Source of the DNA: a bacterium
GTDB lineage: Bacteria; Vulcanimicrobiota; Vulcanimicrobiia; Vulcanimicrobiales; Vulcanimicrobiaceae
DNA length: 35,995 nucleotides
Direction of reading: 5' to 3'
Assembly: GCA_028869385.1 (NCBI GenBank)
Contig: JAGWSR010000151.1
Coordinates: forward strand, 1-35,995
Part shown: in pieces, positions 8,450 through 26,657 of the stretch
How positions within the stretch are numbered: position 1 is the first letter of the stretch
How the letters are laid out: each line of letters starts with the position of its first letter
The notes under the pieces: model-generated
Seen by the model: only the letters and a program-made list of their open reading frames with translations
What the model was told of the DNA's origin: nothing
Database searches by the model: none
Translations under genes and position numbers: made by a program

Positions 8450-9709
8450 TTACAAGCGGCCTAGCTTCTCAGCCGCGGTTGCTACCCCTGCCCGCAGGGC
8501 CCCGAGCGCCCGCTCCACCTCGGCCGCGGTGACCACGAGCGGCGGCTCCAGCCGGATCACCCGCTGCTGGTTCAGCGTCCAAGCGGCGGTGACGCCCGCC
8601 TTGAGCATCTCGGGGATGATCCAACCGCCGTAGCCCTCGCTCGTGAGCTCGGCGCCGACGAGCAGCCCGAGGCCGCGCGCCCGCGCGATCACCGAGGGAT
8701 ACTCCGCGGCGATGGCGCGCACGCCTTCGAGGAGTTGCGCGCCGCGCTCGCGCGCGTTCTCGACCAACCGATCCTCCACGAGCACCTCCATCGCGGCGAG
8801 CGCCGCCGCGCAGGCGATCTCACTGCCGCCGAAGGTTGAGGTGTGCACGAGCGGCTGCTTTGCGTAGGCGCGATTCCAGACGTCGGGACGCGCGATGAAG
8901 GCGCCGACCGGTACGATGCCGCCCGAGAGCCCTTTGGCGAGCGTCATCACGTCGGGCACGACCTCGTCGCGGTCGCAGCCGAAGAGATAGCCACAGCGCC
9001 CGAGCCCCGTCTGCACCTCGTCGGCGATGAAGAGTGCGCCCGCGCGGTCGCACGCCTCACGCACGGCGCGCAGGTAGCCCTCCGGCGGCACGTTCACGCC
9101 GCCCTCGCCCTGCACGGGCTCCACGATGAACGCCGCCGCATCGCGCAGCACGTCGTCGAGCACCGACGCGTCGCCGAACGGCACGTGCGCGACGTCGGCG
9201 AGCAACGGGCGAAACGGCGTCTGGAACGCCTCGCGACCGCTCACCGAGAGCGCGCCGTACGTCTTGCCGTGATACGCATCGTGCGTCGCGACGATCTTGG
9301 CGCGCCCCGTCGCGGCGCGCGCGAGTTTGATCGCGCCCTCGACCGCTTCGGTGCCGCTGTTGCACCAGAACGAGAGTTGCAGATCGCCCGGCGCGAGTTC
9401 GGCGAGGCGTTTGGCCGCGCGTCCGAGCACGACGTTGAACATCGTCTTGCCCGAGAGCGACATCGCCTCCATCTGTTCGCGCACCGCCGCGATCACGCGC
9501 GGATGCGAATGGCCGAGCGTGAAAACGCCGTAGCCACCGGCAAAATCGAGATACGCCTTGCCCTGCTGATCCCAAATCGTCGTGCCCTGCGCGCGCACTT
9601 CCACGGGCGAACCGGAGAGCTTCATCACGCGCGCGAGCGGCGGATTCAGATACCGCTTGTAATTCTCGAAGACTTCGCTCGCGAGATCCTGGGGATTGTT
9701 TGTCAGCAT
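8450..9709 (-). CDS. Class III PLP aminotransferase, putrescine aminotransferase-like
   Basis: The 419-aa protein is a fold-type I PLP enzyme. Hallmarks are the phosphate-binding NSGTEAVEGAIKLARA (residues 118-133), LFIADEVQTGLGRCGYLFG (226-244) and the Schiff-base lysine in MTLAKGLSGG (Lys259). The C-terminal half (HTSTFGGSEIACAAALAAME, then RVIRLEPPLVV) is closest in my memory to PatA-type putrescine/diamine aminotransferases, with acetylornithine and omega-amino acid aminotransferases as alternatives. It moves an amino group between a terminal amine and a 2-oxoacid. ATG 9709 is chosen because upstream in-frame codons run through the RNA element at 9731-9914. It is the first gene of the five-gene operon ending at 4522. 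Confidence 0.9.
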   Translation of the reverse strand: MLTNNPQDLASEVFENYKRYLNPPLARVMKLSGSPVEVRAQGTTIWDQQGKAYLDFAGGYGVFTLGHSHPRVIAAVREQMEAMSLSGKTMFNVVLGRAAKRLAELAPGDLQLSFWCNSGTEAVEGAIKLARAATGRAKIVATHDAYHGKTYGALSVSGREAFQTPFRPLLADVAHVPFGDASVLDDVLRDAAAFIVEPVQGEGGVNVPPEGYLRAVREACDRAGALFIADEVQTGLGRCGYLFGCDRDEVVPDVMTLAKGLSGGIVPVGAFIARPDVWNRAYAKQPLVHTSTFGGSEIACAAALAAMEVLVEDRLVENARERGAQLLEGVRAIAAEYPSVIARARGLGLLVGAELTSEGYGGWIIPEMLKAGVTAAWTLNQQRVIRLEPPLVVTAAEVERALGALRAGVATAAEKLGRL

Positions 9710-9730
9710 GGTTTGCGTGATCGTACCTCG

Positions 9731-9914
9731 CCTGGGGCGTCTCGATGGTGTCGACACCGAGCCTGATACCCTACGGTGCCGCGGGTTCGATTCCCGCACG
9801 CTCCAGGTGTCGCCCCTTGTGGCGGCTCGATACGGGTGATATCGTGGGAAGGTATCAGGCTCGGTGTCACTCGGGCGTCGGACGCGTTCATCGCGTCCGG
9901 CGCCTTTGTCTTTT
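9731..9914 (+). ncRNA. tRNA/tmRNA-like RNA element, copy 1
   Basis: A stem CCTGGGGCGT (9731-9740)/ACGCTCCAGG (9798-9807) closes a module with a perfect tRNA-type T arm: GCGGG (9781-9785), loop TTCGATT, CCCGC (9793-9797), joined directly to the acceptor strand as in tRNA and tmRNA. After the 5' strand comes TCGATGGTGTCGAC, reminiscent of the tmRNA D-loop GGTTTCGAC. An 18-base perfect helix joins 9753-9770 to 9851-9868, downstream of the module. A rho-independent terminator follows. There is no CCA, no anticodon arm and no tag-coding region. Copy 2 lies at 26474-26657. The strand is set by the T loop and the terminator. Only a weak TTGTCA-like box (9700-9705) hints at a promoter. Confidence 0.7.
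9875..9914 (+). terminator. Rho-independent terminator of RNA copy 1
   Basis: A 12-bp stem (9875-9886 with 9892-9903, loop TTCAT) is followed by CTTTGTCTTTT. The T-rich tract lies on the plus-strand side only, so it terminates the plus-strand RNA and not the minus-strand dusB gene, whose stop is at 9917-9919. Confidence 0.8.
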
Positions 9915-26428: not shown

Positions 26429-26473
26429 GGCGTGCTCTTGTTACTCTCCTGTTGACGCGTGATGGTGCCCGCG

Positions 26474-26657
26474 CTGGGGCCTTTCGATGGTGTCGACGGT
26501 CGAACCGACGATTCACGCCGCAGCGGGTTCGATTCCCGCAGGTTCCAGTCGCGATCGCATTGCGATGACGCGCCCGGTGTGTTAGCGTGAAACGGTCGGT
26601 TCGGCCAACGCGCCATCATCCAAGCCGCTCCTCTACGAGGGGCGGCTTGGTACGTTT
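26474..26657 (+). ncRNA. tRNA/tmRNA-like RNA element, copy 2
   Basis: It matches copy 1 (9731-9914) in architecture and module length. Stem CTGGGGCCT (26474-26482)/AGGTTCCAG (26540-26548); identical TCGATGGTGTCGAC; identical T arm GCGGG-TTCGATT-CCCGC (26523-26539). The paired bases differ compensatorily: the sixth acceptor pair is G-C in copy 1 and C-G here. A long-range helix pairs 26498-26509 with 26595-26606 (12 bp, one G-U); its sequence is unrelated to copy 1 but its position is the same. A hairpin near 26550-26572 and a terminator follow. No CCA, anticodon arm or tag frame is present. Confidence 0.7.

Follow-up and report, generated by a model that had tools for sequence, protein, structure and literature searches.

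The window, the whole 35,995-nt stretch of DNA analysed here, carries two related plus-strand elements at positions 9731-9914 and 26474-26657, whose presence and layout were confirmed (Table 1). As the earlier note had reported, the copies share an identical TCGATGGTGTCGAC and an identical GCGGGTTCGATTCCCGC. Their acceptor stems (GGGGCGT/ACGCTCC in one copy, GGGGCCT/AGGTTCC in the other) differ in a compensatory manner at pair six, G-C versus C-G, and each copy closes with a hairpin and a U-tract, followed by a convergent gene. Compared with dinucleotide shuffles, both copies fold better (z of -7.0 for copy 1 and -5.5 for copy 2), and a pattern derived from the module matched twice in the window against 0.00 matches expected.

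Table 1. Features of the two elements. RNA-A, tRNA-like RNA with candidate promoter P_A; RNA-B, predicted short RNA with promoter P_B; X and X', complementary segments.
Feature	Position	Strand	Remark
Copy 1 candidate P_A, ATTG-N18-GTGAT	9695..9722	+	conserved upstream element
Copy 1 RNA-A module	9732..9807	+	covariance-model match 90 bits; covariation
Copy 1 acceptor 5' strand, GGGGCGT	9734..9740	+	pairs with 9798-9804; G3.U70; A73 at 9805
Copy 1 D arm, TCGA-TGGTG-TCGA	9742..9754	+	stem covaries in distant members
Copy 1 X, 18 nt complementary to X'	9753..9770	+	
Copy 1 anticodon-like arm, 24 nt	9755..9778	+	loop CTGATAC at 9763-9769
Copy 1 T arm, GCGGG-TTCGATT-CCCGC	9781..9797	+	
Copy 1 P_B, TTGTGG-N17-TATCGT with extended TG	9817..9845	+	
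Copy 1 X', predicted RNA-B 5' end	9851..9868	+	predicted start ~9852
Copy 1 intrinsic terminator	9873..9914	+	would end RNA-B and any RNA-A read-through; from sequence, fold, family
Copy 2 candidate P_A, CTTG-N18-GTGAT	26437..26463	+	
Copy 2 RNA-A module	26474..26549	+	87.6 bits
Copy 2 anticodon-like arm	26497..26520	+	loop CCGACGA
Copy 2 X	26498-26509	+	within anticodon-like arm
Copy 2 P_B, TTGCGA-N17-TAGCGT with extended TG	26560..26588	+	
Copy 2 X', predicted RNA-B 5' end	26595..26606	+	
Copy 2 intrinsic terminator	26620..26657	+	from sequence, fold

No Rfam family reached its gathering score anywhere in the window. Under permissive settings copy 1 matched tmRNA at 17 bits (cut-off 47) and YrlA at 20.5 bits (cut-off 69), while copy 2 matched tRNA-Sec at 23 bits and YrlA at 12.6 bits, far below cut-off, with tmRNA unlisted. 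The element resembles YrlA (RF02553) in joining a tRNA-mimicking domain to a long helix and differs in that its helix is probably intermolecular; assignment to YrlA or the bacterial Y RNAs was rejected on these scores and on the lack of a Ro60/TROVE gene in the genome. A tmRNA or permuted tmRNA was rejected because the match is sub-threshold and there is no tag domain, and a T-box or riboswitch because no coding gene lies downstream on the same strand. Full-text searches of open-access literature showed no account of such an RNA family.

Of 103 genomes in the order, 29 had a match to a degenerate module pattern and none to a reversed control pattern. The covariance-model scan for homologues that the earlier note had proposed was performed with a model (R1) built from 41 copies. 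Of 149 genomes from the phylum Ca. Eremiobacterota, 51 proved to carry the element, usually with one to three copies each and with strong covariation among the homologues, and the model also recovered a second, more distant family of the same class (f3); where stated, counts below refer to a wider set of 83 copies. Among GTDB r220 contigs, complete-module matches sit in records named Candidatus Eremiobacterota, WPS-2 or unnamed bacterial MAG. Matches in other named phyla were set aside as resembling chance matches within coding sequence, and the few matches outside the Eremiobacterota that have a pairable flank all lack a G3.U70 acceptor. Additional copies sought in the window's genome through the tmRNA model proved to be ordinary tRNAs. 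The Ca. Eremiobacterota, uncultured soil bacteria, are apparently host to an undescribed family of small RNAs resembling alanine tRNAs.

Covariation within this family is extensive. In alignment A2, 96.3% of cells are paired in a cloverleaf-like structure, with two-sided changes at 14 of 25 pairs (131 cells), and none of 500 shuffles was as good; the acceptor, the anticodon-like arm and the T stem all covary. Together with the missing Rfam match, this bears out the original proposal of a structured plus-strand RNA that has tRNA/tmRNA character and has not been described. The sub-threshold tmRNA and tRNA-Sec matches might be read as traces of degenerate tmRNA or tRNA pseudogenes or of repeat debris, but covariation refutes this reading, and an invariant G3.U70 pair, a conserved promoter and terminator (described below) and a normal tmRNA elsewhere in the genome leave its probability negligible. 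That tmRNA is an ordinary one-piece molecule (L001, G000:C73:2-355), so the element does not replace it.

On the evidence of the aligned sequences, the 75-nt module is a tRNA fold and not a tmRNA. It consists of a 7-bp acceptor, a 4-bp D arm, a stretched anticodon-like arm and a T arm with the loop TTCGATT or similar. The D stem is mostly TCGA/TCGA, is replaced by CTGC/GCAG, TGGA/TCCA, CTCT/AGAG or TCGG/CCGA in distant members, and reaches at least 4 bp in 89% of copies compared with 7% of shuffles; its loop usually contains GG. Because this D arm is that of a normal tRNA and covaries among distant members, the likeness to the tmRNA D-loop is not a feature of the family, although the main clade does share a GGnnTCGAC-like D region with tmRNA (RF00023). 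The hairpin directly after GTCGAC, where no anticodon had been recognised before, is an anticodon-like arm with a 7-nt loop: a covarying 24-nt hairpin between the D and T stems, built either of 4 bp, a small bulge and 3 bp or of 8 bp, with a loop that is mostly 7 nt and of the form YYGNNAC. The absence of an encoded CCA was upheld. So was that of a tag frame, and the pseudoknots of tmRNA are likewise lacking: only about 26 nt (the 24-nt hairpin and 2 nt) lie between the D and T parts. The comparison with tmRNA therefore stands for the T arm and the 7-bp acceptor with its G3.U70/A73 alanine identity and fails elsewhere: between its half-domains the element has no tag frame or mRNA-like domain, and it has its own normal D arm and an intact anticodon-like hairpin. 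These features argue that RNA-A is a tRNA mimic.

G3.U70 is the identity pair recognised in AlaRS substrates and tmRNA. In the first 41 copies G2-C71, G3.U70, C72 and A73 are invariant (41/41), and the wider set retains G3.U70 in 77 of 83 copies and A73 in 81 of 83, the exceptions to G3.U70 occurring only where the acceptor is degenerate, gapped or partly broken. Acceptor pairs 4-7 drift while G3.U70 stays, and the host's own tRNA-Ala copies and tmRNA also carry the pair. G3-U70 is described as the main feature by which AlaRS is determined across all three domains (PMC6451123). RNA-A does not encode CCA, which 24 of 29 sampled host tRNAs do; a CCA-adding enzyme is present, together with an RNase Z-like match below its curated cut-off. 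The acceptor extension is base-paired (CT/AG and variants), which could hinder charging.

ARAGORN did not call the window copies as tRNAs, nor are they among the RF00005 matches of the genome. Over the 83 copies it returned 16 tRNA calls, as Ile(gat), Val(gac), Asp(gtc), Ser(cga) and Leu(gag). Of 61 parsed loops, 47 read GAU, GUC or GAC (mostly G34-type) and none GGC or UGC. The arm does not have the 5-bp anticodon stem of elongator tRNAs; since its stem is longer, decoding is not assumed.

The anticodon-like arm is also the site of the long-range pairing. The helix described in the earlier note was recovered, with 18 bp between X and X' in copy 1 and 12 bp in copy 2, and it covaries across homologues. 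X comprises the 5' strand and loop of the arm, and X', typically 12-19 nt, follows the T arm at a distance of about 50-70 nt in most copies and at a greater distance in f3. The pairing is strongly cognate: X:X' averages 14.4 bp within a copy compared with 7.6 bp with the downstream regions of other copies, reaches at least 12 bp in 86% of own pairs compared with 2.8% of swapped ones, and distinguishes the paralogues of a single genome (14.6 bp for cognate and 7.0 bp for non-cognate pairs). The predicted energy of the duplex is about -30 kcal/mol, compared with -15 for swapped pairs and -6 for the local arm. At the sucC/acyl-CoA dehydrogenase site X and X' have changed together between copies, reading GGTCGAACCGAC/GTCGGTTCGGCC in window copy 2, ACGGTCGAACTGTC/GACAGTTCGGCCGT in L068 and GGCTGGACCGTC/GACGGTCCAGCC in L213. 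Tandem arrays of two or three non-identical copies a few hundred bases apart also occur (L046, L047, L049, L051, L053 and L063), and their X/X' pairs are distinct between copies.

Further pairing is present around X'. The main family has an O stem enclosing X', with at least 6 bp in 64% of copies compared with 38% of swaps (6.4 bp own, 5.3 bp swapped), a weaker signal than that of X:X'; it is absent in f3. Members of f3 (L188-L192, L205) have a hairpin between the module and P_B whose loop contains a second X complement of 6-10 nt, which is 9-10 nt long in L188, L191, L192 and L205.

X' begins just after a conserved promoter. In 79 copies with a TAnnnT hexamer near X', alignments gave the sigma70-type consensus TTG-N17-TGnTAnnnT: an extended -10 TG was present in 74 of 79 and TTG at 16-18 bp in 73 of 79 (61 at exactly 17), where the hexamer itself was required by the search pattern and TG, TTG and distance only chose between candidate hexamers. 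The hexamer is TATAAT in two copies, both f3. In the same 79 copies X' starts 1-14 nt after the hexamer, mostly 5-7 nt, and a terminator hairpin with a T run, likewise identified from the alignments, follows X' in 74. The earlier reading of the long helix as merely part of one RNA with a topology unlike tmRNA is not sustained by this arrangement. Pairing that begins at the predicted +1 is hard to account for in a single RNA and natural for an antisense transcript, which points to a second RNA; by sequence, the distal strand is most likely a separate short RNA-B, antisense to the anticodon-like arm of RNA-A.

A functional single read-through RNA, composed of the module, a short hairpin, the X' hairpin and the terminator, with X:X' forming an intramolecular kissing or pseudoknot contact and P_B adding copies of the 3' part or being incidental, has also to be considered. 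No terminator was seen between RNA-A and P_B, which leaves room for read-through transcripts of RNA-A with X' in cis, and the full-length RNA has a stable fold. The O stem of the main family (64% versus 38% swapped at 6 bp) points to structure within a read-through RNA itself and, like the second X complement in the f3 hairpin, would suit such a molecule. It leaves unexplained why pairing starts at the predicted start of a strongly conserved promoter, however, and f3 has no O stem, and we consider it rather unlikely. In a read-through RNA, X is probably contacted in cis too, which is the main reason why the two-RNA model is not rated higher.

Upstream of RNA-A, 63 of 83 copies have a G[TG]GA[AT] box at a distance of 15-19 nt from G1, compared with 3.8% in shuffles. 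It forms part of the candidate promoter P_A, in which a CTTG-like box precedes a GTGAT-like box at a usual offset of 22 nt. From the position of this element, RNA-A would be expected to start at the acceptor stem. The candidate P_A CTTG-N18-GTGAT departs from the sigma70 consensus, and its -10 is unlike that of P_B. A phage copy carries TTGACC-N17-TACGAT, a sigma70 consensus-like promoter, at the place of P_A.

This phage copy (L228:5186-5261, minus strand) is full (91.9 bits) and lies on a 64.5-kb viral contig (IMGVR_UViG_3300047171_000080), within a 15-kb stretch that also holds terminase-like genes. Apart from L228, matches to looser viral patterns, mostly at about 26-38 bits, are probably ordinary tRNAs and were rejected. 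Chromosomal copies occupy a few shared syntenic sites beside housekeeping genes (e.g. sucC/acyl-CoA dehydrogenase) across genera; the neighbours are housekeeping genes, and no partner gene common to the neighbourhoods was found. Synteny of this kind would fit a role in housekeeping or stress regulation instead of toxicity, in which uncharged RNA-A regulates AlaRS or EF-Tu or sequesters them as a decoy and RNA-B sets the level of RNA-A, as would a near-invariant G3.U70 and A73 next to a base-paired acceptor extension and no encoded CCA. CCA could nevertheless be added by the enzyme present (the RNase Z-like match being below cut-off), and patchy occurrence (51 of 149 genomes) and the phage copy fit an accessory element better, making this alternative unlikely. 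Alanine identity and an anticodon arm longer than normal decoding allows might instead suggest a non-ribosomal alanine donor, an Ala-tRNA gated by RNA-B and dedicated to cell-wall or lipid aminoacylation. Since no aminoacyl-transferase gene lies beside the window copies, no partner gene is common, and several orthogonal pairs per genome would be left unexplained, we regard it as very improbable.

Both RNA-A and RNA-B are intact in 74 copies; in 5 RNA-A is damaged and RNA-B intact, in 3 both are damaged, and the one copy classed as RNA-A intact with RNA-B absent (L204) has its arm deleted. Hence no functional-looking RNA-A occurs without RNA-B, in a search whose model needs RNA-A and would miss orphan RNA-B genes. 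This asymmetry is suggestive of RNA-A being harmful alone, although decayed copies are few and co-dependence fits too. A third, decayed copy in the window's genome (L187, G000:C52:42862-42924) has kept X, promoter, X' and terminator and lost its T arm.

We propose that each locus would yield two plus-strand RNAs. RNA-A, from P_A, would be a 75-nt tRNA-Ala mimic with G3.U70/A73 identity and a stretched anticodon-like arm, and RNA-B, from P_B, a short antisense RNA made up of X', a short linker and the terminator. X' would base-pair with the arm along its loop and 5' strand, such that RNA-B nucleates on the loop, strand-invades the arm and silences RNA-A, with every paralogue forming its own insulated pair. 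Upon induction of P_A, free RNA-A would engage AlaRS, and perhaps EF-Tu or the ribosome too; the two RNAs would function as an RNA-RNA toxin-antitoxin or threshold switch. Production of both RNAs, strand invasion, alanylation and toxicity are what we infer here, and from the sequences compared the antisense-controlled tRNA-Ala mimic as a whole stands at about an even chance. That the pair is a true toxin-antitoxin is possible but doubtful. Its predicted cognate complementary RNAs with separate promoters match the layout of a type VIII-like RNA-RNA toxin-antitoxin.

We know of no class with this layout, an AlaRS-identity tRNA mimic linked to a promoter-driven complement of its own anticodon-like arm, and it was not found in the literature searched; nor was any description of the small-RNA biology of Ca. 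Eremiobacterota. Among known systems, SdsR/RyeA likewise consists of two small RNAs acting by complementarity, and the difference between P_A and P_B recalls that pair, in which a sigma70 promoter drives the antitoxin and an alternative (sigmaS) promoter the toxin (PMC6610125). SdsR and RyeA are, however, cis-antisense on opposite strands, whereas RNA-B lies downstream on the same strand, typically pairs over 12-19 nt and has a tRNA mimic as its partner. CreTA resembles the element in that a second RNA restrains an RNA-level toxin directed at tRNA function, but CreA represses transcription as a CRISPR-type guide and CreT is a mini-ORF RNA that sequesters a rare tRNA (PMC8501985). The tRNA-ProX of Streptomyces is a natural dual-identity tRNA, whose amino-acid identity and anticodon do not correspond, and a G3:U70 pair in the acceptor can by itself be enough for other tRNAs to be mis-alanylated (PMC11415595); the partner of tRNA-ProX is a ProRS paralogue and that of RNA-A would be an antisense RNA, and RNA-A has a longer anticodon stem and putative decoding. 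These precedents make it testable whether RNA-A is a mistranslating chimeric tRNA, charged by AlaRS through G3.U70 and bearing non-alanine anticodons. Freed from an anticodon-masking RNA-B, it would mistranslate or jam Ile, Asp or Val codons, forming an anticodon-sheath toxin-antitoxin that is carried by phage too. We consider this extension improbable.

If the antisense-controlled tRNA-Ala mimic is correct, it would represent an RNA-only control circuit at aminoacylation or decoding, and possibly a phage-host battleground. Alanylation of RNA-A and its switch-off by RNA-B would thereby become directly testable questions.
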